NCBI GenBank assembly: GCA_021405325.1
Contig: QWII01000017.1
Location: 1-64,000, forward strand
DNA from: Caldilinea sp. CFX5
GTDB taxonomy: Bacteria; Chloroflexota; Anaerolineae; Caldilineales; Caldilineaceae
Length of the DNA: 64,000 nucleotides
Direction: 5' to 3'
The notes beneath the pieces are model-generated. The model was not told the origin of the DNA, searched no databases, and worked only from the letters and a program-made list of their open reading frames with translations. Shown piece after piece: positions 2,059 to 61,373 of this stretch (the first letter of the stretch is position 1; the number at the start of each line of letters is the position of its first letter). The translations under genes were made by a program, and so were the position numbers.

Positions 2059-4379
2059 ATGCGCGCCTCCAACTGATCGAGCCATTCGTTGATATAGGCG
2101 ACCACGGCCTCCGGCGCCGCCTCAATCGGCGCAATGCCCTGGTCACGCCAGTAGGCTTCTTCCAAGCGGTTGAGGTTGGGGACAATCGCCCAGCCACCAT
2201 CGAGCAACCGGCGTTGTTGGATACGGAGCCGTTGCCAGAGCAGGCGGAAATACCAAGGGCGCAGGGAATAGCCAAAACAGAGCAGGCTGCTGCGCCGAAA
2301 CTGTTCGAGTAAGGTCATTGGTAAGAGCGCGCCGATCTCTTGGGGCAGGCGGTTGAGATAATGATCTTCGGTGACAATCAAGCGTTCTGGCGCGGACGCC
2401 ACGCCCTGACCACAGAGTTTGATGATAATTGGGTGTTGGTCGGTTAGATGGCCCTGGTACCGGTTTGGATCTTGTTCCGGCGCCACCAAGGGAATGGCTT
2501 CCCCGGACGGCGGCAGATGAACAAAGCAGGCCGGCTGAACTGTGGAGCCATCATCACCAGGGTGCTGATAGGCAAAGAGATGATAGGGCTGTGCGATGGA
2601 CTGAAAGGCTTCTTCGAGCAATTGATCCAAGGCGGTGGAGAAGATGATCAAGCGGCGCTTTGGGTCAACTGGGTAGCCTTTGGCACGTAAACGACCAGCG
2701 AGTTCGGCCAATAAGCGATGAAAAAGAGTGGGCGTATAGCTGGCTTGATAAAGGTCGGTCAACCTATCATAGAGCGCCCCTGGCTGCTCCAGGAGCGTCG
2801 TATGTTGTGAAATTTCCGGCAACGATGGTTTGCCCGCCAGCGGTTCCGGCAGCCGCTGCGCTAATTCCCGCGCTGCTTCGTCGGCGCTGGGCGGATAAAG
2901 CCCGGCGACCCATCCATCCTGTGCGGGTCGGCCAAAGCGGCTAACATCCCATCCCAAAAAGGGGACGAGACGCCCATATTGAAGCGCATCCAAAATGGCC
3001 TTATATTCGTCAAATTGCCCATGCAGCCGGATCGTATCAATGGGAGCGCCATCAAGATGCCCTTTCACCTCGGCGAGCAGGCGGCGGGTTTGGCAGAAAT
3101 TGGGCGCCAGTCGTTCCACTTCCAGCAAGCACTGATAGGCTTCCCGCCAGGCTGCGGTTTCCTTAGAGGCTTGGGCCGCATCGTAGAAGCGGGCGGCCTT
3201 GCGGCTCTTCTCAATCTGTGCGACTGCGTTTTGCGCACCGGCATGAGCAGGGTCGAGCGCTAGGATGCGGGTCAACAAGGCACGCTGTTGGGCCGGTTCA
3301 TTGGTTGTCGGCAGCCGCAGCCAGAGGTGTTCGGCTTTTTGCCCATCTGTCAACACCGGCAGCACAAACGGTTCACTGTCTTGTAAATAGAGCGCCGGCA
3401 CCCCCCAGGCGGTTGAGTGTTCAGCCATCCGTTTGCGCCCTTCGCCCAACGCCGCTTCCAGGTGGTAGCCATCGGCCAGCGCGCGATAGAACTCTTGGGA
3501 AAAGAGCAGGGCGTCCGTATCACGAATGGGCGCTTGCATGGCAATGACCGCCGGCAAGCCCTGTTGGATCAACTTTTGCGCCACGCCGGCAAAGGCGGAA
3601 CGATACCCCGGCGTCGCCCCTTGACAGGCGTTGAGCAGCGCCAGCCGTAACGTCTCACAACCGCTTAGTAAGGTTGCCATCTGTTCTGCTGCGCAGGGGA
3701 TAGCGCTGCCGTCCGCCTTTTGCAAATAGAGCAAACCGGCCTGGGTCGTCGAGTCAAAGCGACCATGACCGACAAAGTGAAAAATATGAGGCTTGTGTTC
3801 CCGGAGCGCGCTCTGGAACGCTTCATAGGTGGGGTCGATGCGGATGACTTCCAGCGCAGCAGTGGTGGTGGCATTGACCAAATTGGCCCATTCCGCCATT
3901 GCGTCCAACCCTGGCAGGTCAGTAGGATTGCTGATCATGACTAGCAGGCGCAACTGGCCCTCGACCGCCACCAGTTTACGCCCTGGTGTCGGCAAGCTGC
4001 GCACCAGCGATAGGTTGGGATGCAACGCCAGGGGCTGCTCGCTGGTGCGGTCATACAAATATTCCCACGGTACAGCCAGCAGTTCCGGCGTATTGCTCAT
4101 CAAGCGCAGGCGCACGCGCTGACCGGATGCCATTGCCGCAGCATACCGACGAAGGAGCCCGCCCCCCAGCAGTTCATCAAAGAGGGCGCCGCCGACACTT
4201 TTCCAGAGGGCGTCATCCGGTTGGCCTTGATCAAGCGCAACGTTCAACTGGGCAACGGCATCTGCCACCGCCGACAGGCGAAAGGCGCCCAACGTTGTCG
4301 TGTTGTAATCGTACACGATAACATTATCACCGGCCGTAGGTTCGGCACTAGTAATGGTAATCCCAAGATCTACTAACAT
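2055..4379 (-). CDS. CHAT protease-like / SIR2-like fusion protein
   Basis: 774 residues. The N-terminal half is a CHAT (caspase-HetF) domain: a VPWEY motif (103-107), HFVGHG with the candidate catalytic His205, and LLNACQGA with the candidate Cys252. A helical linker (about 360-440) precedes a SIR2-like domain. Its signatures are LVPFLGWDVSRFGRP (NAD-pocket loop, about 471-485), IIFSTALDQLLEEAF, IIIKLCGQ and LLCFGYSLRPWYFRLL. The same order (pocket loop, N/T-D loop, K-x-H/C-G, GYSL-x-D/P) is known from SIR2 NADase-type defence proteins. The NTPase-WD40 gene overlaps the stop codon. I infer a two-gene conflict or cell-death module with protease and NAD-consuming activity in one effector chain. 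Neither activity is proven, and the pocket has WDVS instead of the usual AGVS/ADVN. No strong ribosome binding site precedes the ATG. Confidence 0.88.
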   Translation of the reverse strand: MLVDLGITITSAEPTAGDNVIVYDYNTTTLGAFRLSAVADAVAQLNVALDQGQPDDALWKSVGGALFDELLGGGLLRRYAAAMASGQRVRLRLMSNTPELLAVPWEYLYDRTSEQPLALHPNLSLVRSLPTPGRKLVAVEGQLRLLVMISNPTDLPGLDAMAEWANLVNATTTAALEVIRIDPTYEAFQSALREHKPHIFHFVGHGRFDSTTQAGLLYLQKADGSAIPCAAEQMATLLSGCETLRLALLNACQGATPGYRSAFAGVAQKLIQQGLPAVIAMQAPIRDTDALLFSQEFYRALADGYHLEAALGEGRKRMAEHSTAWGVPALYLQDSEPFVLPVLTDGQKAEHLWLRLPTTNEPAQQRALLTRILALDPAHAGAQNAVAQIEKSRKAARFYDAAQASKETAAWREAYQCLLEVERLAPNFCQTRRLLAEVKGHLDGAPIDTIRLHGQFDEYKAILDALQYGRLVPFLGWDVSRFGRPAQDGWVAGLYPPSADEAARELAQRLPEPLAGKPSLPEISQHTTLLEQPGALYDRLTDLYQASYTPTLFHRLLAELAGRLRAKGYPVDPKRRLIIFSTALDQLLEEAFQSIAQPYHLFAYQHPGDDGSTVQPACFVHLPPSGEAIPLVAPEQDPNRYQGHLTDQHPIIIKLCGQGVASAPERLIVTEDHYLNRLPQEIGALLPMTLLEQFRRSSLLCFGYSLRPWYFRLLWQRLRIQQRRLLDGGWAIVPNLNRLEEAYWRDQGIAPIEAAPEAVVAYINEWLDQLEARI

Positions 4380-24970: not shown

Positions 24971-27900
24971 ATGCAAGTACAAAAGAATTTCATGACCGCT
25001 TATCCGCAGATCAAACTCTTTGGTACACCTGCCATCACCCGTGACGGGCAGCCGGTGACCGGCTTTATCTCCAACAAAGCGGCGGCTGCCATCTATTTTA
25101 TCGTTGCCGGCGCGCAAACCCAAGGCCGCGATCTCCTGGCCACGCTCCTCTGGACCAACTCGATCGATACTTACGCCAAAAAGAATCTGCGCAATGTGCT
25201 TTCTAATCTGCGCGATCTACTGGGGGATGTCCTCGAAATCACGCGCGAAACCGTGAGCTTGCCGGCATCACTCTATGAAACCGTGGATAGCAACCGCTTT
25301 CTGGCGCTCTTCAAGCAAGCGGAACAGACTACGCTTGCCGACCAACGCCGTGACCACCTGGCCGCTGCTGTTGCGCTCTACCAAGGCCCCTTCTTGGATG
25401 GCTTTCATATTGCCGACGCCGAAGCGTTTGACGAATGGCTGCGCAGCGAACGGGAACGCTTCGGTTTGCTGGCAATCCAGGCGCTCCATGAATTAGTCGC
25501 AGGCAGCGGGCCGCAGGGTAAAGTGCTGGAAGGGATCAACTACGCCACCCAATTGCTCAAACTCGACCCGCTGCGCGAAGAGACCCATCGCCACCTGATG
25601 CAACTGCTGGCGCTTGACGGGCAGGTGAGCGCGGCCCTGGCCCAATATCGCACCTGCCAGAAATTGCTACAAAGTGAACTGGGCGTAGACCCCGATCCTG
25701 AAACCCAAGATCTCTACCGGCGCATCCAGGCCGGCGAATTTCGCAAGGAAAGTACGACCGCGCTGACAACCATCCCCATGGCGATCCCGGCGGCGCCCCC
25801 GGTGGTTCCTGTGAAAACGTCGCCCCGCATTGTCCTGCCGGCGGTGATCACCGGCTTTGTCGGGCGCGTGGCGGAAGTCGCCCAGGTGCAGCAGCGACTG
25901 GCGGAACCGGGCTGTCGGCTGCTTACCATCACCGGCATGGGGGGCGTGGGCAAGACGCGGCTGGCCTTGCGCGCTGGTCACGCCCTGGCCAATCGTTCGC
26001 TTAACGCATCACCGCCGATCTATACCGATGGCATTTACTTTGTCCCCCTCGCCGCCCTGACCCCGAATGCCCAAAGCGAACACCAACTGCCGACGGCCAT
26101 TGCCGTCCAATTGCAACTCCCCCTCAGCGGGGCAACGGCGCCGGCCACCCAACTGATCCAGGCGCTCTACGACAAGGATCTCTTGCTGATCCTCGACAAC
26201 TGTGAACATTTGCCGATGGCGCCATTGCTCAGTCCCCTCTTGCAGGAGACCCGCTATCTCCAATGTTTGGTCACTTCGCGCAGTCGGCTCAATGTACACG
26301 GTGAACATCTCCTGCAACTATCCGGGCTGACGACGCCTGACGATGCTCCGGCAGTTGCCAGCCCCGGTGATGGGGAGAGTGATGCCACCCGCCTCTTTGT
26401 GCAGAGCGTGCAGGCCATTCATGCCGACTTTGCGCTGGATCGCCAGACGACGCCGCTTGTCACGAAGATCTGCCAGCTTTTGCATGGCTTGCCGCTGGGC
26501 ATTGAACTGGCGGCAAGTTGGGTGCGCTTTCTGTCACTGGAAGAAATCGCCCAGGAGATCCAGCAAAACCTGGATTTTCTCGATACTACGCTGGATGCCC
26601 AACCGGATCCCCAGCGTAGTTTGCGTGCTGTCTTTATGAACTCCTACCGCCTGCTCTCAACGGCCGAACAACAGGTGTTGCGCCGGCTGTCGGTGTTCCG
26701 CGGCGGTTTTACGCGTGCGGCTGCCACGCACATCACCGGTGCAACGCTCCCCATGTTGGCTGCCCTCAGCGATAAATCGTTGCTCGAACGCACCGGGCTG
26801 CCGGCGGATAAACCAACCAAAAGGGCTACCGGTGCCTGGCTGAATTATCGGCTGCACCCGGTGATCCACCAATATGCCGCCGAGCAACTGGCGTTGGCGC
26901 AGGAGGCCAGCACCACGCAGGAACGCCACGCCAGCTATATCGTCGGCATGTTGGCCGAACAGCGCAGCGCGCTCCAAGGGACTGGACAACAAGCCGCGCT
27001 ACAGTTGATCCACAGCGAGATCGAAAATGTGCGCGCCGCCTGGCAGTGGTTGATCGACCACCTGGTGCAAGGTGACGTGGCGCTGGCAGACAACGAAACC
27101 CAGATCAGCCAGGGCATCGACAGCCTCTTCCACTTTTATGATATGCGCAGTTGGTTTCAAGAGGGCGAAGCAGTCTTTGGGCAACTGGCCCGTCAATTGG
27201 CAACCTTTGCCACCACGGGAGCGGCAACAACGACACCCGATGAGGCGGAGACCGTGTATATGGCCTGGTCGCTTCAGGCCAAAGCCCAAGCGCGTCAGGG
27301 GTGGTTTGCCTTTCATCTTGGTCGCTATGCCGAAAGTCGCCGGCTGTTGGTCGAGAGCTTGCAGCGCTTGCAAGAGTTGGACGCCGAGGTCGAAACCATC
27401 TTCAACCTGAATTACCTGGGGGCGTTGCTCCGTCACCTGGGCGAGTTTGCCCAAGCCACGACCTATCTCCAGGAAGCGCTCCGACTGGCCCGGCGGCACA
27501 ACGACCCGATGAGTACCAGTATCGCCCTCAACATTCTGGGGCAAATTGCGTCATTGCAGGGTGATGCCGTCGAAGCGCGCCGCCTGTGTCAGGAAGCCTT
27601 GCAGATCAAACGCACCATCGGCGACCGCTGGGGCATGACCTATTCGCTCACCTACCTGGGCCGGGTGATCCAGGCCAGCGGCGATTATGGCACGGCGCAA
27701 AAGCTCTTCGCCGAAAGCCTGACCATCTGCGAGGCGATCGGCGATCAGCGGGGCGCCGCCTTTGCCCTGCAAAACTTGGGAGACACTGCCTTTGCCGCCG
27801 GCGATCTAGCCACCGCTGGTCAACGCTACCAGGAGAGCCTCGCCCTCTACCGCACCATCGGCAATCGGGCTGAAAGCAGCCTGACATTGGCCCGGCTGGG

Positions 27901-28279
27901 CGAAACCTATCGCGCCGGTGGGGAACAGAGCCAGGCGCGCCAAGTATTGGTCGAAGCGTTGGGGCTGGCCTGGTCGTTGTCATCGACACCCGGCCTATTG
28001 GCGTCATTGCTGGGGTTGGCTGCGCTTGATCTGGCTGTTGGAAAACCAGCGGAAGCCATATCGCCCCTGCGCTATGTCTACCAACACCCGGCCAGTAGCC
28101 AAGAACAGATAAAGCAAGCCGCGCAATTGCTCAACACGATTGGCGCTGATATGAACACTAAGGATGGGTGGGATGTAGCTGATTATGTGGAGACGGTGTT
28201 GCCCATTGACAATCCGTCGCTCTCATTTTTGCATCAGGAAGCAGCAACTAACTCTGCCACACGCGCTTCTAGCCTTTGA
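24971..28279 (+). CDS. BTAD-STAND-TPR transcriptional regulator (AfsR/SARP-like)
   Basis: 1102 residues. Residues about 12-100 are a winged-helix domain (IKLFGTPAITRDG, then KAAAAIYFIVAG). About 100-265 form a bacterial transcriptional activator domain with the typical DPLREETHRHLMQLLALDGQVSAALAQYRTC and LGVDPDPETQDLYRRI. A STAND NTPase follows: Walker A GMGGVGKT (322-329), Walker B LLLILDNCEHL, sensor CLVTSRSRL. From about 760 on there are TPR repeats. The class is an NTP-gated activator whose TPR sensor releases the DNA-binding end. The target is unknown; the divergent AT-rich region and the cyclase-like gene 118 bases downstream are candidates. Another ATG at 24992 is possible. Confidence 0.88.
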   Translation: MQVQKNFMTAYPQIKLFGTPAITRDGQPVTGFISNKAAAAIYFIVAGAQTQGRDLLATLLWTNSIDTYAKKNLRNVLSNLRDLLGDVLEITRETVSLPASLYETVDSNRFLALFKQAEQTTLADQRRDHLAAAVALYQGPFLDGFHIADAEAFDEWLRSERERFGLLAIQALHELVAGSGPQGKVLEGINYATQLLKLDPLREETHRHLMQLLALDGQVSAALAQYRTCQKLLQSELGVDPDPETQDLYRRIQAGEFRKESTTALTTIPMAIPAAPPVVPVKTSPRIVLPAVITGFVGRVAEVAQVQQRLAEPGCRLLTITGMGGVGKTRLALRAGHALANRSLNASPPIYTDGIYFVPLAALTPNAQSEHQLPTAIAVQLQLPLSGATAPATQLIQALYDKDLLLILDNCEHLPMAPLLSPLLQETRYLQCLVTSRSRLNVHGEHLLQLSGLTTPDDAPAVASPGDGESDATRLFVQSVQAIHADFALDRQTTPLVTKICQLLHGLPLGIELAASWVRFLSLEEIAQEIQQNLDFLDTTLDAQPDPQRSLRAVFMNSYRLLSTAEQQVLRRLSVFRGGFTRAAATHITGATLPMLAALSDKSLLERTGLPADKPTKRATGAWLNYRLHPVIHQYAAEQLALAQEASTTQERHASYIVGMLAEQRSALQGTGQQAALQLIHSEIENVRAAWQWLIDHLVQGDVALADNETQISQGIDSLFHFYDMRSWFQEGEAVFGQLARQLATFATTGAATTTPDEAETVYMAWSLQAKAQARQGWFAFHLGRYAESRRLLVESLQRLQELDAEVETIFNLNYLGALLRHLGEFAQATTYLQEALRLARRHNDPMSTSIALNILGQIASLQGDAVEARRLCQEALQIKRTIGDRWGMTYSLTYLGRVIQASGDYGTAQKLFAESLTICEAIGDQRGAAFALQNLGDTAFAAGDLATAGQRYQESLALYRTIGNRAESSLTLARLGETYRAGGEQSQARQVLVEALGLAWSLSSTPGLLASLLGLAALDLAVGKPAEAISPLRYVYQHPASSQEQIKQAAQLLNTIGADMNTKDGWDVADYVETVLPIDNPSLSFLHQEAATNSATRASSL

Positions 28280-43961: not shown

Positions 43962-45119
43962 TTACTGACCTGTTGATGTTGTCTCGATATAGTGGCCAAT
44001 CACTTGCAGGGCAACATCAACAGACTCCAATTCTTTCAGTTCCTCAAGCAGGCGCTCTTCACCGTAATGATTGCCGAGTTGACGATAGAGTTGCAATGCC
44101 CGCCCAATGTATTCGTCTGCTTTGGCTGTTTGCCCACCCTGTGTGTAAATGATTCCAATGTTGTGCCAGGTATAGGCAAGGAGCAACACATCGTGATGTT
44201 TATGGAAAATCTGCTCGGCCTGGCGCGCAAGGTCTTCTGCTTTGACAAGCTTGCCCTTCTGTCGATAGGCAATCGCCATGTTTTGAAGGATGTAGCCGAC
44301 CATTGCCGTTTCGCCGAGGGCTTCGGCTCTGTGATAAGCGTCTTCTAACCAGGTTAGGGCTTCCTCAGGCTTCTTCTGATCGACATAAAGCATACCCAAA
44401 TTCAGCAAACCAAAAGCAGTCAAACTGTGTTCATCACCTATTGCACGCCAAAAGTTACAGGCTTGCTGTAGATGGGTTTCTGCTTCTGCCCATCGCTTCT
44501 GACGTGTGTAGAGGGTACCTAAATGGTTGTGTGTGTGTGCACGCCCGTGCTGACTGTTAAGCGCCTCAAAGAGCGTTAGTGCATAACAACCCAGAACTTC
44601 TGACCGCCACCATTGTTCATGTTCCCCATAATAAAACCCCAAATTCGAGCAAGCCCGCGCCAGTTCAAAGCGATTATCGGTGCGGCGGGCCAGGCGGATG
44701 ACGCGGCGGTAGTAGGCCACCACGTCGGCGCCCCGGCTCTGGCGTTGCGAGAGGCGCGCCAGCAGGGCGGTCAGCGTAATCTCGCCGGCCACGTCGGCCA
44801 CCTGCTGGGCGGCGGCGATGGCCCGTTCCAACAGGCTGTGCCAGCTATCCCACAGCCCGCGCCGTTCCATGTAGGGGGCAAAGGTGATGATCAGATGGCG
44901 CGTCGCCGGCCAGACGGTGGCCGCCTGGCTGGGGGCGACGGCCAGCCCAAAGCCAATCGCCTTGAGAATATTCTCCCGCTCGCGGTCGAGCGTACTCACG
45001 GCAATTGTCTTGACGGCGGTGTGTTCACCCCAATAGGCGACCTCGCGCATCACCTGGCGTTCAAAGAAGCCAAGATGATCCTGGGATCGAAGCTGGGGGT
45101 CATGTACGCGGTCGACCAC
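43962..45119 (-). CDS. TPR part of the cassette A regulator (frame-shifted from 45050-46522)
   Basis: 385 residues, TPR repeats throughout (HGRAHTHNHLGTLYTRQKRWAEAETHLQQA and similar). It corresponds to the C-terminal half of the intact 966-residue regulator of cassette B, but here lies in another frame overlapping the STAND part by 70 bases. An ATG at 45119 could start it separately. Most likely a single-base indel near 45090-45130 split one gene; a split gene pair, programmed frameshift or assembly error are alternatives. Confidence 0.78.
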   Translation of the reverse strand: MVDRVHDPQLRSQDHLGFFERQVMREVAYWGEHTAVKTIAVSTLDRERENILKAIGFGLAVAPSQAATVWPATRHLIITFAPYMERRGLWDSWHSLLERAIAAAQQVADVAGEITLTALLARLSQRQSRGADVVAYYRRVIRLARRTDNRFELARACSNLGFYYGEHEQWWRSEVLGCYALTLFEALNSQHGRAHTHNHLGTLYTRQKRWAEAETHLQQACNFWRAIGDEHSLTAFGLLNLGMLYVDQKKPEEALTWLEDAYHRAEALGETAMVGYILQNMAIAYRQKGKLVKAEDLARQAEQIFHKHHDVLLLAYTWHNIGIIYTQGGQTAKADEYIGRALQLYRQLGNHYGEERLLEELKELESVDVALQVIGHYIETTSTGQ

Positions 45120-46522
45120 TTCAGCACCTCATTGAGCAAAAAGGTTTCGGTCAGGCGATGGAGCCGATAGCGCCGCTCAGTCAGATCGCCGGCCAGCTCC
45201 ACCAGCGAGAGCGTCACCAACTGTTCCAGCCCCTGCGCCAACTCCTCGGCGTCAAGACCACTCACCGCCAGCAGATGGTCAAAGGTGACATTGGGATGGA
45301 TCGGCATGGCCAGCCAGAGTTGGCGGCTGCGCTCGTCGAGCAACTGCCACGCCTGCCAGTAGATGTAGGTGTAGAGCGCCTCGATCCGCTTGCCCTGCGC
45401 CGCCTGTAAATTGTGCAAGACCTGCGCCAACGGCAGGAGGCGTAACTGTCCCACCACCAGCTTGAGCGCCAGCGGGTTGCCCCCCACCACGTCGTAAATT
45501 GGCTGCAACTGAGCGTCGGTCGCCTGGCGCAGGGGCGTCAACCCGCGCACCGTACCTTCGTGACGCAACAGGGCAAAGGCATCGGCGGCGCTCAATTCGG
45601 GCAGGGCATAGCAGAAGAGATCCTCATGCTCCTCCGGCAGATGACGGGTGGTGAGCAGGATCTTGCTGGGCCGGCTCAACGAACGCAGCGCCGGCAAGAG
45701 GGTGGCATAGTCGGCCACCGTCTCCAAATTGTCCACCACCAGCAGATGAGGCTGCGCCCGCAAGCGTTCCTGCACGGCGGCAACCTTGGCCGGGGCCGGC
45801 GCCAACAGGTTGGCCTGGGGGTCGAGCTGGCGCAACAATTCGTCGATCAAGGTGGCAAAATCGAGCGCCGGTTGTGCTGCGGTTGGCTGGCCGTTCTGCC
45901 CGCCGATGGCTGGCGCAAATTCCTCCGGTTTGGCGCTCACCCACAGAATTTTGGCAAAGGGCGGTGGGGTGGCGCGGTGTAGCGCCTGCACCACGGCGGT
46001 GGCCAGGGTGGTTTTGCCGATGCCGCCAATGCCGGCCAGCGCCACCAACCAGGGCGCCGTCGGCGCTTGCAACACCTGGGCCAGTTCGGTTTGCGCCGCC
46101 GCAATGCCAAAGAGCGTCGCTTCGCCCCGGTCGGCCAGGGCTGGCGGCAATGGCGGGCCGGCGGTCGTCGGCGCATCACTGGCTTGGGGGGACGCGGACG
46201 GCCCAGCAAACCATGCCTGCACCTCGGCGGGGTGGATCGCATACCCCGCCTGCGCAGCCCAGGCGATGGCGCCGGCCAGGTCAAGCTGCGCGGCAAAGAG
46301 GCCGATCAGGTGCAGCATATAGGTGCGCGTCGGCTTCCAGGTGCGGCCCTTTTGTGTGTGGGCGCGTTCCCAGCGCGAGAGCAGGGTGCTGTCGATGACG
46401 CGGTATTCCTCGGATGGGCCGCGGCGCGCCAGTTGATCGAGCGCTTCGATCAGCGCTTCCTGGTTCCACTGGCGCGCTTTGCGTAAAGCTTGTAACTGCT
46501 TGCCAAACTCAGGTAGGTTCAT
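45050..46522 (-). CDS. XRE-STAND (NB-ARC) regulator, N-terminal part (cassette A)
   Basis: 490 residues. An XRE-like helix-turn-helix occupies about 1-95 (FGKQLQALRKARQWNQEALIEALDQLARRGPSEEYRVIDSTLLSRWERAHTQKG). An NB-ARC-type NTPase follows: Walker A GIGGIGKTT (about 164-172), Walker B LLVVDNLETV, ILLTTRH, GNPLAL. The last residues after LNEVLKW leave the family pattern, pointing to a frameshift into 43962-45119. Its first 110 residues closely match the cassette B regulator, and the promoter carries the same four-half-site operator. It is presumably a ligand-gated activator or repressor of the divergent STAS/exporter genes. Confidence 0.85.
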   Translation of the reverse strand: MNLPEFGKQLQALRKARQWNQEALIEALDQLARRGPSEEYRVIDSTLLSRWERAHTQKGRTWKPTRTYMLHLIGLFAAQLDLAGAIAWAAQAGYAIHPAEVQAWFAGPSASPQASDAPTTAGPPLPPALADRGEATLFGIAAAQTELAQVLQAPTAPWLVALAGIGGIGKTTLATAVVQALHRATPPPFAKILWVSAKPEEFAPAIGGQNGQPTAAQPALDFATLIDELLRQLDPQANLLAPAPAKVAAVQERLRAQPHLLVVDNLETVADYATLLPALRSLSRPSKILLTTRHLPEEHEDLFCYALPELSAADAFALLRHEGTVRGLTPLRQATDAQLQPIYDVVGGNPLALKLVVGQLRLLPLAQVLHNLQAAQGKRIEALYTYIYWQAWQLLDERSRQLWLAMPIHPNVTFDHLLAVSGLDAEELAQGLEQLVTLSLVELAGDLTERRYRLHRLTETFLLNEVLKWSTAYMTPSFDPRIILASLNAR

Positions 46523-49549: not shown

Positions 49550-49602
49550 TACTCATGGGCGGAAAGCTGACCGCTAGGAGGGTCATCTCCGCCCATGAGT
49601 AC
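49549..49602. terminator. 15-bp perfect hairpin after the ABM gene
   Basis: Arms 49549-49563 and 49588-49602 (GTACTCATGGGCGGA and complement) flank a 24-base loop directly after the ABM stop. A downstream gene starts at 49637, so it may act as a partial terminator or a dispersed repeat. Confidence 0.5.
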
Positions 49603-49636
49603 GAGTAGACTCAGCTTGCAAAATAAGGAGATTCGT

Positions 49637-50320
49637 ATGGCGAATACAACACCTGGCACCATCATTGTCCTGAACGGCTGCCCAAGCGTCGGCAAGACTA
49701 GCATCGCCAAAGCGATTCAACGGACCTTTGCGGCTCCCTATCTGCATGTGGGCATTGATCTCTTTTGGTTGGAGGTCTTCCCGTGGGAATGGGCAGGCGC
49801 AGCAACCAATGGCGTCCAGGAAATACCAATCGAAGGGGCATCACCACCGAAAATCAGGCAGACAGCCCAGCCTTTTGGCAACTTTGTTATCTCCGGACTC
49901 CACCATACCATCGCGACGCTGGCTCGGATGGGTCACAACGTCGTGGTCGATCATGCCTTGACTGACGCCAGGTACGTCGCGGACAGCGTCACGGCGTGGC
50001 AGTCATTCCCAGTGTGGCTCGTTGGTGTATTCTGTCCGCTCGAAACAATACACCAACGCGTTGCTGCACGGACCGATCGAAGTTGGCCCAGCTATCTGCC
50101 AATGGTCAACTGGATGTTTGATGAAGCCCATCAACATACGCAGGGCATCTATGATTTTGCGGTGGATACCGCACGCTTGACACCCGAAGAATGTGCCTTG
50201 CAGATCAAACGCCGCCTGTCCGAAGGACCACCGCCTACCGCCATGCATTGGCTGAAGGCGTGGAGCGACCCAGCCAAGCATCGGGGCTGGATCAGAGGGT
50301 GTGCGGAGCCGATGAGCTAA
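49637..50320 (+). CDS. chloramphenicol phosphotransferase-like kinase
   Basis: 227 residues from MANTTPGTIIVLNGCPSVGKTSIAKAI at 49637, behind AAGGAGATTCGT. The P-loop is GCPSVGKTS. Further family features are HVGIDLFWLEVFPW, NVVVDHALTD, VWLVGVFCPLETIHQRVAARTDR and the C-terminal CALQIKRRLSEGPPPTAMHWL. The related Streptomyces enzyme phosphorylates chloramphenicol's 3-OH; here the substrate could be a self-made or foreign compound. A remnant of a second copy lies at 62436-62660. Confidence 0.82.
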   Translation: MANTTPGTIIVLNGCPSVGKTSIAKAIQRTFAAPYLHVGIDLFWLEVFPWEWAGAATNGVQEIPIEGASPPKIRQTAQPFGNFVISGLHHTIATLARMGHNVVVDHALTDARYVADSVTAWQSFPVWLVGVFCPLETIHQRVAARTDRSWPSYLPMVNWMFDEAHQHTQGIYDFAVDTARLTPEECALQIKRRLSEGPPPTAMHWLKAWSDPAKHRGWIRGCAEPMS

Positions 50321-50784: not shown

Positions 50785-51069
50785 ATGCTCAACGAGCATA
50801 ACCTGGAAAGCTGGCTCAACGACCGACGCCAGTTCCTGTTGGCCGAAGCCGAAAGGTATCAGTTGATCAAGATCGCGGCTGCTGGTCGTCCTTCCTTCGC
50901 CTATTATCTCCGCTATTGGGGAAGGTTATTGAAAACTTGGTCCGGCGGTGACTGGGTTGTCGGGCGCAATCGGCGTTTGCATCAGTTGTTGGGCTTGCAA
51001 ATTGAGGGCAAACATCATGCCGATGGCAGCGTCGAGCCGTTCGGGTTGCCCGGTAAAGATCGCCTGTAA
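50785..51069 (+). CDS. MLN-family small protein, copy 2 (C-terminus altered)
   Basis: 94 residues behind GAGGAGGTGCG. It matches the family up to about residue 52 (MLNEHNLESWLNDRRQFLLAEAERYQLIKI...YLRYWGRLLKTW). Beyond that it runs antisense into the 3' end of the VioB-like gene (stop at 50926) and loses the family pattern. This looks like a gene truncated by arrival or rearrangement of the borosin operon, with the tail read from foreign sequence. Confidence 0.55.
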   Translation: MLNEHNLESWLNDRRQFLLAEAERYQLIKIAAAGRPSFAYYLRYWGRLLKTWSGGDWVVGRNRRLHQLLGLQIEGKHHADGSVEPFGLPGKDRL

Positions 51070-53628
51070 CACCCGCAGGAGGTTGGCATAATTCTGGTTG
51101 AAAGCTTCGGAAAGCGTGCGCGCTTGCGAACCTTTGGGCAACACGTGGGTATCGGGGTTGTCGATCATCGGCCAGACGCCGTTTGGGTCAAAATGGATAG
51201 TCGTGCCGGTAAAGCTGAAGCCATTTTCTGTGATCACAAGTTTGTGCCCGTGGACGATTTCGGCAAAGCGATAATAGTGCGACAACTCGCCATCCTCCGT
51301 TTGCGGACGGAACCGAGATGTACCCTCGCCCTGCTCCACAATCTCGCGGATGGCTCGGCGGGCGGATGTAAGGTCAGTCACGGCAATCAACTTGCCCTGA
51401 TCCGGCCAGTGGCGCAGTTGACGCGCCGGGTCGCCGGTGAAAATATTGCTATGCTTACTCAGGTTTGTAAACGCCGCTTTGATCTGCTGGTAAAACCAAC
51501 CGATGGTCAACTGGTGCGGGTTGGGGGTGTGGATGGTCTCTTCCGGCTTTTCAATCGACATGAAGACATTTTGGATCTGTTCCAGCGAGCATTTTTTGAG
51601 CGAAACCGTCAGATCCGGCCGCAATCCGCCCGGCAGCGGGCCGGGGTAGCGGGGCAGAAAGTGGGATTGGTCAAGCCGGGGTGTGCCACCGATGGCATTG
51701 AGCAGGTTGCAGGCCAGCGCCATATGCAACATCTCTTCTATCACTACACTGCGGATGATCGCGCCCACCACGCGGTTGTGCCCCGGCTTGAGCGAGTAGA
51801 GCGCACAGAGATAGACGGGAATGGTGGCATGTTCCAGTTCAATGGCTAATTGGAGCGCCTTCCGCAGCCGTTCCACAGTGATCAGCTTCATAAAGAGCGG
51901 GTTCTCCAGCCAGCGCCGGATCATCGTCCGCTTGGGTGTGGAGAGGTCACGCGTCACCGGCATGTAATTGGGGTCGGTGACGGGGCGGCTGAAGACGAGC
52001 TTGAGCGCATATAAGCGCTGAATCACGCTGTTGTAATCGGCCAAGTTAACAATGCTGCGCATCACGGGGTAGAGATTGGCATACTGTTGAAAGATCGGCT
52101 GCACATCGTCCACCCAGGTCGGGTCGTCGTCACAGGGCTGCTCATCCCAGACCAACACATTGAGGATATAGGCCGGGTTCAGACTGGGCGCCGGATTATT
52201 GAATTGCAGCGGGCTGATGCCCTGCCAGTCATAACGCACGCCATAGACCTGGCCGTCGATGTAGCGGCGCGGGTTGCCGGGGGGCTGGGCATGCAATTCA
52301 AACTGCGCTTTGCCGGTCTGGTCTGTCCTTACCGACGACGGGAAGTGCAACGCTGACGGCGGTATACCGACCGGCGGTCCCGGTTGTACGCCCTGTTTCA
52401 CCTGGCTGGCGACACTGCTGTTGTCAAATGTGAGGTCAAAGCACTGATCAGCGCACGGTTCGCCAAAACGGGTGGCGTATAAGTTCACAGTAACGCTGCT
52501 GTGGGCATCGAGGCGGAAGACGTAAGGTTCAGTACGCGCAAAAGCGCCTTCCTCATTTTCGCGCAACAAGACGCCCGCAATCCGCGCCTGCGCGACGAAA
52601 CGTTCGGCGCTGAGATCGAGCGCTTCCCCGACCAATTGCACGACCGCCAGGGGACAGTGGCGCGCCCATGCCTGTTGTTGGGCCGTCAGCGGGAAGGCTT
52701 GAATCCCTGCCTGGTTCTCATACCAACCCATGGTCTGATAGTTGATCCGTCCGATCAAGGAATATTGTTGGTCGGGGAGGCAAAGGGCCATGTAGAGCGG
52801 GCCGAGATCTTGCAGCGGGCCACCCGGTGCGGTGGTGGGCAGGCTGTTGCCAAAGTCCACCAGCAAGCATTGCCGATCGGCATCAACACGGCAAGGGGCA
52901 TAGTTAAGCGGCTGCTGTGGCAGGTTACGCAGCAAGCGCCCCGCCACAAATTGCGTGGGTTCGTTGGGTTGGTAAAGTCCTAACGCGCCAACCAGGCGTC
53001 CATAGGTGAAATCAGGTGAGGTATGGTGTCCATCATGGTAACCATCTACCGTAAATTTGATTGAGAGACGAGTCGGGAGTTGCCCATCCACGATCAACTC
53101 ACGCAGGAAGCGTGAACAGGGAGCCGATGACCACTGGATATTGGCAACAACAGACTGATAAATTGCGCTAAAACAGGAGTCTGGATATCCGGTTGGAAAA
53201 CGCCGCCAGATATCAGCAAAAGGTGCAACCACAAACTCACCCTTTAATCGATTCCCGCCATTCTGATCGTCGAGCCGAACCTGAAGTCCCCAAATCTCAG
53301 AAACCATTTGCTGCTCAGGATCGAGATCAACCAACTTGCCGGCGACCCGATCATGCGCACTCTTGATCGTTGCACCAATCACAGGGTCGAGGGCTGGGTC
53401 AGTACAGCATGAGCCATCAAGGTAGCAAACACTATATACAAAGCATTCGCGCAGGCGCCAATTGCCGTCCCCGGTTGGGTTCCACCAGCCATGCGTACCC
53501 TCACCGCGTAACTGGTCATTGGGTGTAAACGTAGTATCATCAAAATGTACAGGGTCATTGTTCACCGATGAGGGAGTTGCTTGAAAACGGCCAGAAAAAT
53601 GCAGTCTAGGAAAACCGAGATAACTCAT
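50926..53628 (-). CDS. VioB/RebD-like ferritin-fold protein (candidate borosin tailoring enzyme)
   Basis: 900 residues from MSYLGFPRLHFSGRF at 53628; this ATG overlaps the methyltransferase stop (ATGA). The N-terminus matches the start of VioB/RebD/StaD proteins (L-x-FPR-x-HF-x-GR-x...N-x-D). A mid segment YMPVTRDLSTPKRTMIRRWL also matches. The ferritin-like domain has IELEHATIPVYLCALY (Glu near 597-600) and VVIEEMLHMALACNLLNAIGG (EExxH near 631-635), candidate metal or heme ligands. VioB and RebD couple tryptophan-derived imines; there is no VioA-like amino acid oxidase here. I infer that it modifies the precursor (core contains Trp, Cys, His). It is shorter than VioB by about 100 residues. 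Confidence 0.85.
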   Translation of the reverse strand: MSYLGFPRLHFSGRFQATPSSVNNDPVHFDDTTFTPNDQLRGEGTHGWWNPTGDGNWRLRECFVYSVCYLDGSCCTDPALDPVIGATIKSAHDRVAGKLVDLDPEQQMVSEIWGLQVRLDDQNGGNRLKGEFVVAPFADIWRRFPTGYPDSCFSAIYQSVVANIQWSSAPCSRFLRELIVDGQLPTRLSIKFTVDGYHDGHHTSPDFTYGRLVGALGLYQPNEPTQFVAGRLLRNLPQQPLNYAPCRVDADRQCLLVDFGNSLPTTAPGGPLQDLGPLYMALCLPDQQYSLIGRINYQTMGWYENQAGIQAFPLTAQQQAWARHCPLAVVQLVGEALDLSAERFVAQARIAGVLLRENEEGAFARTEPYVFRLDAHSSVTVNLYATRFGEPCADQCFDLTFDNSSVASQVKQGVQPGPPVGIPPSALHFPSSVRTDQTGKAQFELHAQPPGNPRRYIDGQVYGVRYDWQGISPLQFNNPAPSLNPAYILNVLVWDEQPCDDDPTWVDDVQPIFQQYANLYPVMRSIVNLADYNSVIQRLYALKLVFSRPVTDPNYMPVTRDLSTPKRTMIRRWLENPLFMKLITVERLRKALQLAIELEHATIPVYLCALYSLKPGHNRVVGAIIRSVVIEEMLHMALACNLLNAIGGTPRLDQSHFLPRYPGPLPGGLRPDLTVSLKKCSLEQIQNVFMSIEKPEETIHTPNPHQLTIGWFYQQIKAAFTNLSKHSNIFTGDPARQLRHWPDQGKLIAVTDLTSARRAIREIVEQGEGTSRFRPQTEDGELSHYYRFAEIVHGHKLVITENGFSFTGTTIHFDPNGVWPMIDNPDTHVLPKGSQARTLSEAFNQNYANLLRVLQAIFTGQPERLDAAIGMMFALNLQAQQLMQTPIAPDNPVTAGPSFQ

Positions 53629-54437
53629 AAAGGGTTGAAACTCCGTTTCCAAAATAAATCGTCTGGATTCATGCCTAAGCGCGCTACTATTTCTTGATCT
53701 ACAGGTGCAGTTGCTTTGGGTGGCACGTAGAGTGTAGATAGAGGCGTTATTTTTCCGCCAGGTAAGTTTGCTAAAAGTATAGGTTCGATCACGGGAGGTA
53801 TGGTTGGGTATTGCGATGCTTCATAGAGTATCGCTCCGTGGTCAGAACCGTAAGCGTTTACAAGGATGTCCGCCAACAGTTGTACGCCTTTGCTAATATC
53901 ACCACAAATGGATTGTAAACCAATCGCCCCAACCTGCCACAGAATCAGATGAAGCGTTGTATCAAGCTGACGTTTACTCAGTAAAAATCCCGTTGCTTCA
54001 AAAGATTGCCAGCCCTGGTAAGCAGGCTCGAAACCTAAATCGGCGAATAAACAATCCACGGCTGAAATACCTGGTAACATCCAGGCACGATACCCTTCCT
54101 GGCGCGCCTGCCGAATGGCTTCATGCGCTGGTGTAACCATCACACCGGGGTGTCCATAAAAAACAGCACAGACCTGTGCGCCTTGACGGACAAAAGTCAG
54201 GATGTGAAGAACAATCTCATGATACGTTTGGCTACGATGTTTTTCGTCTGCATAGAAATGATGTAACGATTCCGCTGTTGGATTTAGGCTTTTGATCCAG
54301 TGACCGACCACTTCGTTGTTAACCAGATACAAAACTTTTTCTGCATTTTTGATAAATGCTTGAGCCTCCAGCGTGACTTGACCCACCAGCTTTATCCCTG
54401 TACCTACTACCACTAATGAGCCTGGGAACATTGTCAT
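53625..54437 (-). CDS. split borosin alpha-N-methyltransferase (SonM/OphMA-like)
   Basis: 270 residues of the tetrapyrrole-methylase fold. Key residues: SLVVVGTGIKLVGQ, then Tyr62, Arg68, Tyr72 and Tyr94 (FYADEKHRSQTYHEI...VFYGHPGV). Spacing 6, 4, 22 equals Tyr66/Arg72/Tyr76/Tyr98 of fungal OphMA as I recall it. LPGISAVDCLFADLGFEP and FEATGFLL match bacterial SonM. These enzymes use S-adenosylmethionine to methylate backbone amides of a precursor. The C-terminus ends without a core peptide, so this is the split type. GGAGAAAGG precedes the ATG. The precursor is immediately upstream, past a hairpin. Confidence 0.88.
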   Translation of the reverse strand: MTMFPGSLVVVGTGIKLVGQVTLEAQAFIKNAEKVLYLVNNEVVGHWIKSLNPTAESLHHFYADEKHRSQTYHEIVLHILTFVRQGAQVCAVFYGHPGVMVTPAHEAIRQARQEGYRAWMLPGISAVDCLFADLGFEPAYQGWQSFEATGFLLSKRQLDTTLHLILWQVGAIGLQSICGDISKGVQLLADILVNAYGSDHGAILYEASQYPTIPPVIEPILLANLPGGKITPLSTLYVPPKATAPVDQEIVARLGMNPDDLFWKRSFNPL

Positions 54438-54449
54438 CCTTTCTCCATA

Positions 54450-54498
54450 GGTCGTAACACCCGAAGGGGGTTAATAATCTTCTACGGGTGTTACGACC
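54450..54498 (-). promoter_or_regulatory. intercistronic hairpin between precursor and methyltransferase
   Basis: Two perfectly complementary 14-base arms (54450-54463 and 54485-54498) flank a 21-base loop. It lies 21 bases past the precursor stop and 13 bases before the methyltransferase ATG. No U-tract follows, so partial termination or mRNA-end protection is more likely than full termination. This would allow more precursor than enzyme, as is usual in RiPP operons. Confidence 0.6.
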
Positions 54499-54519
54499 CA
54501 TAGCTTCTAAGCGCCCTGC

Positions 54520-54780
54520 TCATCCATTATGATGATGGTGGTGAACATTCCAACAGACAATCGTGCCGCCCAGATAGTCAATAAGTTGTTGTCGTCCCGT
54601 CTCATCACGCTGGGCATTTGCCAACAAATGCGCCTCCTCTTCAGACATTCCCTCGTTGATCAACATCTGCTGCAGCTCATCAACGGTTAATCCTGCCATC
54701 TTTGCCTGGCGTTGCGGATCTGTCGCCAAGTCAATCAAAAAATGCCACAAAGTATAGCTAACGATTGAATCATTTGACAT
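54520..54780 (-). CDS. putative borosin precursor peptide with His-rich core
   Basis: 86 residues. Residues 1-70 are an acidic helical domain (YTLWHFLIDLATDPQRQAKM, then GLTVDELQQMLINEGMSEEEAHLL) resembling the borosin-binding domain of SonA. The C-terminus GGTIVCWNVHHHHHNG (71-86) is the likely core. Hydrophobic I74-V75-C76-W77 and V79 correspond in position to the YLVIS stretch methylated in SonA. The ribosome site GAGGAG and the ATG lie inside the 3' end of the regulator gene (11-base overlap). A five-His tail suggests metal binding or a follower sequence. No protease gene is adjacent. Confidence 0.82.
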   Translation of the reverse strand: MSNDSIVSYTLWHFLIDLATDPQRQAKMAGLTVDELQQMLINEGMSEEEAHLLANAQRDETGRQQLIDYLGGTIVCWNVHHHHHNG

Positions 54781-57670
54781 CTTCTACTCCTCTTTTTTGT
54801 TCGAGTAACTTCAGATCTGTGGTAAACGTTCTTGCCAAAGACAAAGCTGTACTCTTCAGGAAACTTGTATCGGCAAGTTCCTGCGGTAGCATGTTCATAA
54901 TGGATGCGCCCAGTGGGGTAGACTGAATCTGTTCTTGCAATTGGTCAATCGTATAAGCGGGTAGTTGGGTAGTAAGCGCAGACAGTTGCATTTGGGCCTG
55001 GTGGCGTGTCTGATAATCACTGGCAGGATGTTTTGCCACCAACGAGAGTAGCAGAAAAATCGCTTTTACTGATGAATCAGACAAAGCACGCTTGTCGCTA
55101 TTTGACTCAGTGGTTAGGGATTGCAGCTTGTTAGAGAGCAGTTTTACTACTCCCACCAAATTTTGTAAAAGAAGAGGCTTCGCATTAATCTCCTTCGACA
55201 ACTCGAATGCAGTGCGCAAATACTCCTGCGCACTTATTTCTTCGCCCTGAGCGCAAGCAACATCGAACAGATGATTGAGGGTACGAATTAATCCTGTTTT
55301 TTCGCCATTTTCTTGGTAAATTGTCAGACTTTGTTGATGCCTTGCGCGTGCCAGACTGTAGTCTGCCCGTTTTTGTGCAATCACCCCTAAATGATTGTTA
55401 CACAAGGCAATACCAGTACGATTACCGAGTTCTGCAAATAATCGCAGACTTTGCTCATATAATTGTTCAGCTTCTTCATCAAGAAATTCAGCAACCTTAG
55501 CAAGATTCAGGAGAGCGTTTGCTATACCCCAGTTTTTTTCTAGGCGCTGATAAATTTTTAATCCAGCTTGATACCAATGTTTTGCTTTGTGATAATTGCC
55601 TACGGCCATTTCTACCTGGCCTAAATGTACGCAAAGGCTAGCTTTGAGGGGTGGATCGTCGATATTGGTGTGTCGTTCGAAACTTTGATGCAGATACTGA
55701 AAGGATGCCTGATAGTCACCTTGATTGTAAGCGATAATGCCCAACGTATGATAGGCAAGACAGATTTCTTTGTCATCCGGGTATTGCTGCAAACTCTTTA
55801 AGCTTTCCTGTAGAAGCTGTACTGCCTGATCGGGCTGTCCCAAAAAGTGGTCAAATAATGATTCACGCACCATCACCTTTGCCAGACATTGTTGTATCCC
55901 AGGTTCTGGATAAGTATTAAGCTGTAAAGTCTTTGTTAAACTTGTACGAGCCACGCCAAACGTGCTTTTCCCTTCCCGAAACCAGTTGACCATAGAATAA
56001 AAAGGGGTAAAGGAGGGTATGTATTGCTCTAGTATGACCACACGTTGGTGAGCAACAGCCCAATGCCAACCAGACCGTATATTGTGAATCTCCTCTTTGA
56101 TCTGAGTAACTGCGCTCTGTTCCTGAGCGCTGTGCAAAAGCGGTTCCAGTTGTTGTAAAAAGCCGCCGTAATATTGCGCATGACATTCTTGTACGGCCTG
56201 ATCACGGTCTGCATCCGCTTGCAGCTTTTCCTGGGCGAATTGACGCAACAATTCATGCAACTCATAGCGCCCCGCCGTCACTTTGAGCAAGGATTTATCG
56301 ACCAGGCTGCGCAACGTCACCAAAGACGACTTGACCACACTGGTGGCAGCTTCGCGCGTGAAACCACCTTGGAAGACCGCCAGGGCTGCCAATACTGCCT
56401 GCTCCGGCGCAGTCAGCAATTGCCACGAATATTCAAAGACCGCCCGCATACTGCGCTGGCGCGCCGGCAGATTGCGATGGGGCGAAGTTAAAAAGTCGAG
56501 ATTGCGCGCAATTTCGTCGCCGATTTCAACGCAGGAGAGCATGTGAACCCAGGCCGCCGCCATCTCAAGGCCCAGCGGAATGCCTTGCACCAGGGTGCAG
56601 ATGCGGGCAATCGCCGCCGCTTGCACCGGGTCGTTGCCCGGATCAAAGTGATCATCAGCCTGCTGCGCCCGCGCCAGAAAGAGGTCGATGGCAGCATACG
56701 CTTCCGTCATGGTCAGCGCCGGGAGAGCCAGGGCGCCCTGACGCGCCTGGCCCGGTGTTGGCTGGACCGTCGGAAAGGGCAGCCCCGTCACCGCCAGCAC
56801 CCACTCCTCGGCCAGGTTCAGCCGCTCGCGCGAGGTCACCAGCAGATGAACGCCCGGCGCCGCCTGCAAGATAGCGGTCAGCAGGGGACCAATCTCGGCA
56901 ACCAGATGCTCCACATTGTCCAGCAGCAGGAGCAAGCGCCGTTTCTGCAACGCAGCCAGCAACTGTTGTTCGGGATCAACCGCCCCCGCCAACGCCACCC
57001 CCAGCGTATTAGCCAGTCCATTCACGACTAAGCCGGTTGTGCTGATACCGATTAACGCGAAAAAGTAGACGCCATCGGCAAAGGCGTCGTTCGGTTGGTT
57101 GACAACGGCATGCGCCACTTGCAGCGCCAACCGCGTCTTGCCCACCCCGCCTTCACCTACGATGGTGATTAACCGCGTCGCTGGCGCTGCCAGATAAGCC
57201 AGTAAGCGCGCCATCTCCTCGGCGCGCCCGACAAAAGAGGTGAGCATGGTCGGCAGGTTGTGGGGCGGCGTCGACGGTGCGATCCCCGGCGCGCCATTGG
57301 TTGGCGCCGGTTGCGCGTCAGCGCCAGCGAGCTGGGCCGCGGCCGTCGGCACAGCAAACCACGCCTGCACTTCGGCGGGGTTGATCTGATAGCCGGCCTG
57401 GGCCGCCCACGCGATGGCGCCGGTCAAGTCAAGCTGTGGGGCAAAAAGGTGGATCAGGTGCAACATGTAGGTGTGCGTGGGTTTCCAGTGGCGCCCCTTT
57501 TGGCTGTGGGCGCGTTCCCAGCGCGAGAGCAGCGTGCCGTCGATGACGCGATACTCTGCCGGCGGGCCAGTGCGCGCGAGTTGATCGAGCGCTTCGATCA
57601 GCGCTTCCTGACTCCATTGGCGCGCTTTGCGCAAGGCTTGCAACTGCTTCCCAAACTCGGTAAGGTTCAT
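54770..57670 (-). CDS. XRE-STAND-TPR regulator of the borosin operon
   Basis: 966 residues. XRE-like helix-turn-helix (about 1-100; LSRWERAHSQKGRHWKPTHTYMLHLI), NB-ARC NTPase (Walker A GEGGVGKT 172-179; Walker B LLLLLDNVEHL), and TPR repeats from about 560. The first 110 residues match the cassette A regulator almost position for position. The stop overlaps the precursor start, so the operon is read regulator first. Its promoter has the four-half-site operator. The TPR region presumably senses a ligand or peptide. No ribosome binding site is obvious. Confidence 0.9.
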   Translation of the reverse strand: MNLTEFGKQLQALRKARQWSQEALIEALDQLARTGPPAEYRVIDGTLLSRWERAHSQKGRHWKPTHTYMLHLIHLFAPQLDLTGAIAWAAQAGYQINPAEVQAWFAVPTAAAQLAGADAQPAPTNGAPGIAPSTPPHNLPTMLTSFVGRAEEMARLLAYLAAPATRLITIVGEGGVGKTRLALQVAHAVVNQPNDAFADGVYFFALIGISTTGLVVNGLANTLGVALAGAVDPEQQLLAALQKRRLLLLLDNVEHLVAEIGPLLTAILQAAPGVHLLVTSRERLNLAEEWVLAVTGLPFPTVQPTPGQARQGALALPALTMTEAYAAIDLFLARAQQADDHFDPGNDPVQAAAIARICTLVQGIPLGLEMAAAWVHMLSCVEIGDEIARNLDFLTSPHRNLPARQRSMRAVFEYSWQLLTAPEQAVLAALAVFQGGFTREAATSVVKSSLVTLRSLVDKSLLKVTAGRYELHELLRQFAQEKLQADADRDQAVQECHAQYYGGFLQQLEPLLHSAQEQSAVTQIKEEIHNIRSGWHWAVAHQRVVILEQYIPSFTPFYSMVNWFREGKSTFGVARTSLTKTLQLNTYPEPGIQQCLAKVMVRESLFDHFLGQPDQAVQLLQESLKSLQQYPDDKEICLAYHTLGIIAYNQGDYQASFQYLHQSFERHTNIDDPPLKASLCVHLGQVEMAVGNYHKAKHWYQAGLKIYQRLEKNWGIANALLNLAKVAEFLDEEAEQLYEQSLRLFAELGNRTGIALCNNHLGVIAQKRADYSLARARHQQSLTIYQENGEKTGLIRTLNHLFDVACAQGEEISAQEYLRTAFELSKEINAKPLLLQNLVGVVKLLSNKLQSLTTESNSDKRALSDSSVKAIFLLLSLVAKHPASDYQTRHQAQMQLSALTTQLPAYTIDQLQEQIQSTPLGASIMNMLPQELADTSFLKSTALSLARTFTTDLKLLEQKRGVEDVK

Positions 57671-58615: not shown

Positions 58616-58744
58616 ATCGTAGGTGCGGCTTGTAGCCGCACGAGCCGGCAGACCGTGCGGCTACAAGCCGCACGAGCCGGCAGACTGTGCGGCTACAAGC
58701 CGCACGAGCCGGCAGACTGTGCGGCTACAAGCCGCACCTACGAT
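58616..58744. repeat. GTGCGGCTACAAGCCGCAC repeat array with 26-bp terminal inverted repeats
   Basis: Outer 26-base arms are perfectly complementary. Between them a 32-base unit is repeated about three times, each unit itself palindromic. A shorter relative lies at 61281-61373. The architecture suggests a non-coding mobile or REP-like element after the 58182 gene. Confidence 0.85.
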
Positions 58745-61280: not shown

Positions 61281-61373
61281 CGTAGGTGCGGCTTGTAGCC
61301 GCACGAGCCGGGAGTTCGTGCGGCTACAAGCCATACGAGCCGGGAGTTCGTGCGGCTACAAGCCGCACCTACG
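61281..61373. repeat. second GTGCGGCTACAAGCC repeat element
   Basis: Same family as 58616-58744, with CGTAGGTGCGGCTTGTAGCC ends inverted at the other side and two internal units. One unit carries CCATAC instead of CCGCAC. Confidence 0.8.

Follow-up and report, generated by a model that had tools for sequence, protein, structure and literature searches.

A split borosin gene pair in Caldilinea sp. CFX5 and its predicted ferritin-like tailoring partner

Which peptide is made from a short precursor gene that stands beside a methyltransferase gene in the chloroflexotal bacterium Caldilinea sp. CFX5, and which of the neighbouring genes take part in its maturation? The question is raised by a stretch of 64,000 nucleotides (contig QWII01000017.1, positions 1 to 64,000; here called the window), for which an initial annotation, made from the letters of the sequence, had proposed a split borosin system. 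Here, the precursor and the enzyme are almost certainly such a pair. Furthermore, the gene directly downstream codes for a ferritin-like protein of the family PF12902, for which a tailoring role on this peptide is predicted, and to this reading of the locus as a whole we assign a probability of roughly 0.6. The split borosin kind itself is already known; new here are the partner, a divergent leader and a core with a Cys-Trp-His5 sequence.

Precursor and methyltransferase

Two adjacent open reading frames (ORFs) are present on the minus strand, as had been annotated: the precursor of 86 aa (54780..54520) and the enzyme of 270 aa (54437..53625). The latter is assigned as a borosin alpha-N-methyltransferase by its homology to SonM and OphMA and by its active-site residues. 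Using HMMER, SonM (E 7.9e-57, 195.7 bits, residues 6-261) and OphMA (E 4.1e-53) were found to be its best solved relatives, and Tyr62, Arg68, Tyr72 and Tyr94 align with Y58, R67, Y71 and Y93 of SonM, for which mutants have been measured (PMC8429565). When the window enzyme is aligned with 15 relatives (16 sequences in all), R68 and Y72 do not vary, and conservation is at least 90% at Y62 and Y94, which bears out the borosin spacing noted earlier for these four residues. The closest of 4,722 relatives of the enzyme shares 71% identity and lies on a contig of 1,960 bases.

The family libraries are less specific, since the broad PF00590 is the sole Pfam match and general methylase models stay under their cut-offs; the borosin identity is therefore taken from the SonM/OphMA match and the neighbouring gene. 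The broad match would also suit a tetrapyrrole methylase, of the cobalamin or YabN kind, beside an unrelated small ORF. A better match to either of these, named in the initial annotation as what would speak against a borosin, did not appear: the YabN model reaches 49.9 bits against an NCBIfam cut-off of 525, and the corrin and sirohaem models stay below 20 bits. In view of the far higher SonM score and of the leader profile match described below, a tetrapyrrole methylase is very improbable.

The precursor ORF, with GAGGAG preceding its ATG, has a relative in the metagenomic protein P0122 (92 aa, 61% identity over 99%), the sole one found by a search that required shared five-residue words. The leader is mostly retained between the two up to Gly72, and the tails diverge (RFDYWHSGGHSGNDGNNDEI in P0122, TIVCWNVHHHHHNG in the window), a pattern of retained leader and changed tail that fits a leader-plus-core architecture. 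Due to this relative and to the intact gene for an enzyme of a peptide-modifying family downstream, the precursor ORF is considered to be beyond chance.

An AlphaFold2 model calculated with the precursor and P0122 displays five helices (residues 9-20, 22-29, 33-42, 47-58 and 60-70) at a mean predicted local distance difference test value of 75.7, with low confidence from residue 76 onward. Residues 1-70 (54571..54780, minus strand) are read as a leader with a divergent borosin-binding domain, on the basis of this model, a profile match and a weak single-sequence match to a hidden Markov model (HMM). For the profile, 81 distinct leaders were gathered beside borosin enzymes elsewhere, and 26 of these enzyme-linked leaders were used to search the PDB, where they find SonA (7.2e-14), dbOphMA (7e-5) and OphMA (about 8e-4). 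The precursor together with P0122 matches this profile with a probability of 93.8 and an E-value of 1.7e-7 in a profile-profile comparison. Two results speak against a borosin leader: as a single sequence it matches at E 0.018 among 16,363 ORFs, and a structure search with the precursor model gave no SonA match. Since the single-sequence match reaches just this value, the leader is regarded as a divergent member. The HMM searches proposed earlier for both proteins are thus clear for the enzyme and weak for the leader until profiles are compared, and with SonM and OphMA as best solved relatives the split borosin reading was upheld.

The ferritin-like protein and its recurrence beside borosin enzymes

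The more unusual part of the locus is formed by two genes outside the initial annotation, the ferritin-like gene and a regulator gene. The ferritin-like protein (900 aa, 50926..53628, minus strand) consists of a beta-rich N-terminal part of about 500 residues and a C-terminal PF12902 domain (residues 592-792; 51253-51855), which is supported by a score above the Pfam cut-off and by the fold. Its ATG overlaps the TGA of the methyltransferase gene as ATGA, and its ExxH metal motifs are intact and conserved across 34 aligned sequences. The best-known PF12902 member is VioB of violacein synthesis, which acts on a small aromatic metabolite with indole units. An assignment as VioB (TIGR04492, iminophenyl-pyruvate dimer synthase) was rejected at 15.6 bits against a cut-off of 1,250. 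For a metagenomic enzyme (P0015) and a metagenomic ferritin-like protein (P0125, 76% identical), the longest contig is 6,875 in both cases, which hints that they share one contig.

The recurrence of the pair was examined with a partner profile of 60 relatives, including the window copy. In a survey of named genomes, in which 80 of 371 relatives were kept, it matches three of 79 loci (L061, L066 and L077). Counting each borosin enzyme once and including the window, eight out of 106 enzymes are followed on their own strand by a partner match no more than 2.2 kb away, as the next gene in seven loci and one gene away in the eighth. The linked loci outside the window belong to Myxococcota and Planctomycetes.

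Both groups were followed within their classes. The class of the Myxococcales metagenome-assembled genome (MAG) that holds L077 (G006; 289 genomes) contains 28 enzymes in 18 genomes, with up to eight candidates scored per genome. For PF12902 it gives 66 rows from 51 genomes, two rows being fragments of a single gene. Here, enzyme and PF12902 gene are direct neighbours four times (G006, G419, G428 and G480), the matched stretches being 42-72 bases apart. By a rough estimate of our own, the number expected by chance is well under 0.01; the four may go back to a common ancestor. In the class of Aquisphaera (G690; 248 genomes), seven enzymes were found in six genomes, and the N-terminal half of the partner lies downstream of three of the seven (G690 twice, G794). 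It is the next gene in G794 and in the second G690 copy; in the first copy one gene lies between, its end overlapping the partner start. Because relatives of both halves follow borosin enzymes in distant bacteria, the prediction is that the partner modifies the precursor peptide as well.

The cores encoded beside the partner hold short aromatic motifs. Myxococcota precursors combine a borosin-binding leader with 12 to 31 Tyr motifs such as AIYASQPA, VVYAAG, MVYAAQ and MVYGAG. The leader is visible in L093 and L095, whereas L066 and L077 lose it to a contig end; for precursors cut in this way the motif counts are lower bounds. The precursors of Aquisphaera and G794 hold IVYGPVYFF, IVYGPVYYF or VTYHYMGG. 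The motifs of linked cores read MVYA, VVYA, AIYA, IVYG and VTYH, next to IVCW in the window and FDYW in P0122. Tandem Tyr-motif precursors of up to about 310 residues, followed directly by a methyltransferase and a PF12902 gene, were observed at L066:1-960, L077:1-360, L121:6568-7497 and L122:5900-6545. By eye, an ORF resembling formylglycine-generating enzymes lies upstream of the precursor in L093 and L095; in L122, a genome stretch of L095, it is seemingly fused to a protein kinase.

Several observations have to be weighed against a role of the partner in peptide tailoring. No partner match was found for 98 of the 106 enzymes in the flank examined, often just 1.5 kb, and a ferritin-like gene is present in no Chloroflexota locus except the window within that flank. 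Conversely, 62 of the 66 PF12902 rows in the G006 class are not beside any of its 28 borosin enzymes, and eight out of ten loci retrieved via the partner or PF12902 hold no such enzyme, the other two coming from genomes picked for their enzyme. Myxococcota partners consist of the ferritin half only and those of Planctomycetes of the N-terminal half only. Finally, Tyr or Trp occurs in five of five linked tails and in 37 of 71 other tails (Fisher p 0.06; p 0.02 by frequency, with kinship ignored), so that an enrichment is suggestive only.

The solitary PF12902 genes and the other Chloroflexota loci would fit a plain split borosin with a bystander, in which the precursor is just N-methylated and the PF12902 protein serves another substrate, for example a small aromatic metabolite. 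This is rather unlikely, considering the ATGA overlap with the enzyme gene, the adjacency that appears again in Myxococcota and Planctomycetes, and the large distance of the protein from the VioB model.

Core, histidine run and predicted product

If the ferritin-like protein does act on the peptide, its substrate would be the core region, residues 71-86 (GGTIVCWNVHHHHHNG; 54523..54570, minus strand), delimited by its sequence and by the difference from the P0122 tail after Gly72. The profile register aligns precursor residue 53 with SonA position 42; in SonA, the methylated residues are L63 and I65 (PMC8429565). Transferring these two positions through the register places the predicted methylation at about I74 and C76, that is near residues 74-77 (54550-54561, minus strand) and within the residues 74-79 suggested before.

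The core also contains a run of five histidines (54529-54543, minus strand), encoded by a mixture of CAC and CAT codons. For comparison, 76 distinct tails following a leader at loci other than the window were collected; five enzyme fusions are counted in, and the set excludes duplicates, tails shorter than 6 or longer than 400 residues, and enzymes for which no leader match was obtained. Three or more consecutive histidines occur in none of the 76 and two in five, which marks the tail TIVCWNVHHHHHNG as unusual.

This run, together with a ferritin-like fold carrying ExxH motifs and with histidines in the Aquisphaera cores (VTYHYMGG) and in L062 (THHGGH), might suggest that the His5-Cys tail is a secreted or stored metal ligand, backbone-methylated for stability, and that the ferritin-like protein handles the metal and not the peptide. 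However, the tail of P0122 is without a histidine run, and the scanned genes included none recognisable as a metal transporter or metal regulator, which makes such a ligand improbable.

For the favoured reading of a borosin tailored by the ferritin-like protein, the following order of events is proposed. By way of its leader, the precursor would bind to the enzyme dimer in the manner of SonA on SonM. The SonM-family enzyme would methylate backbone amides of the core, most likely near I74-W77, adding the methyl groups from the N-terminal toward the C-terminal side. The ferritin-like protein would then oxidise Trp77 of the Cys-Trp part, or Tyr in the distant relatives. Extended to all linked loci, one could imagine a borosin subtype that the window shares with Myxococcota and Planctomycetes and whose PF12902 ferritin-like oxidase, together with the N-terminal partner domain, crosslinks or oxidises Tyr or Trp in N-methylated cores, those of Myxococcota with up to 31 or more repeats. 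The window product would be an N-methylated, oxidised Cys-Trp peptide with a five-histidine metal site. This wider proposal is possible but tentative.

A recurrent second enzyme would give the type IV borosin pathways a testable second step, and the combination of a borosin methyltransferase with PF12902 offers a handle for genome mining. If the role of the partner is true, the PF12902 family would gain a peptide substrate. Furthermore, a ribosomal peptide that joins a methylated backbone to oxidised aromatic residues would be useful in the making of stable peptides.

Operon, neighbourhood and comparison with known systems

On the minus strand, four genes follow each other in a row: the STAND-type regulator, the precursor, the methyltransferase and the ferritin-like protein. 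The regulator (966 aa, 54770..57670, minus strand) displays a NACHT/NB-ARC ATPase (NACHT 4.9e-9, NB-ARC 2e-5), TPR repeats (TPR_12 6e-23) and a weak helix-turn-helix (HTH_31, 17 bits, under the cut-off of 27), and it runs 11 bases into the precursor gene. The sole intergenic gap in the row is that of 82 bases between precursor and methyltransferase. Being tightly packed, the four genes probably form one operon, read as a single transcript. The gap contains a hairpin (54445..54503, minus strand) of 19 + 2 base pairs, with no U-run after it, which folds at -38.2 kcal/mol (z -4.87; none of 200 shuffles equally stable) and whose arms occur nowhere else in the window. It may permit a higher output of precursor than of enzyme.

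Five of six loci named as Chloroflexota (L008, L016, L019, L033 and L049; not L063) have a regulator homologue immediately upstream. In these five, an ORF sits between regulator homologue and enzyme; in L016 and L019 this ORF gave no leader match. Among 400 genomes of the phylum of G001, eight hold a borosin enzyme, and in seven of these a weak TPR match (24-30% identity) is found just upstream; two loci of this set, L130 and L131, duplicate L008 and L063. From this gene order, a host within Chloroflexota would be predicted for the window. Other genes follow borosin enzymes elsewhere. In a Caldilineaceae MAG, a LodA-like protein is encoded directly after the enzyme (L008:6541-8403; PF17990 6.4e-79, PF18417 4.1e-43), so that a different oxidase family may occupy the partner's place; the matches listed for LodA with ribosomally synthesized and post-translationally modified peptides in the open-access literature were all unrelated. 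A candidate leader peptidase, a subtilase (PF00082), is encoded downstream of the enzyme in an Ardenticatenaceae MAG (L019:11138-14074). On inspection by eye, borosin enzymes are directly followed by a halogenase-like flavoprotein and by a P450-like protein at L103:233-1462 and L021:1647-2852.

Further features of the window were recorded. A chloramphenicol-phosphotransferase-like kinase (49595-50320, plus strand; PF07931, NCBIfam CPT 51.5 bits against a cut-off of 250) is convergent with the borosin operon. A BTAD, NB-ARC and TPR regulator (24971-28279, plus strand) is built like the one found upstream of the borosin genes in L008. An NB-ARC protein and an overlapping TPR protein (45050-46522 and 43962-45119, minus strand) are possibly a single STAND regulator in two frames. 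The protein encoded at 2055-4379 (minus strand) combines a CHAT with a SIR2-like domain, and tandem repeats of 32 bases at 58623-58737 and 61286-61368 have a common unit with the palindrome GTGCGGCTACAAGCCGCAC.

A search of the open-access literature gave no paper on borosin and ferritin together. The closest known system is the type IV split borosin SonM/SonA from Shewanella oneidensis, which likewise has a separate adjacent enzyme and short precursor, the same active-site residues, and a helical leader before a C-terminal core (PMC8429565). In the same study it is stated that none of the type IV borosins had a known final product at their first description. In contrast to SonM/SonA, the window has a divergent leader spacing, a Cys-Trp-His5 core, an upstream STAND regulator and a downstream PF12902 protein. 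The fused borosins, represented by OphMA and omphalotin, share a homologous methyltransferase domain, and the 26-leader profile finds the OphMA clasp as well; in fused borosins, precursor and enzyme are joined in a single protein, whereas here they are two. Compared with the PF12902 proteins Caulobacter CC_0557 (3hl1) and VioB, the ferritin-like protein of the window is no VioB orthologue and is linked to a peptide methyltransferase.

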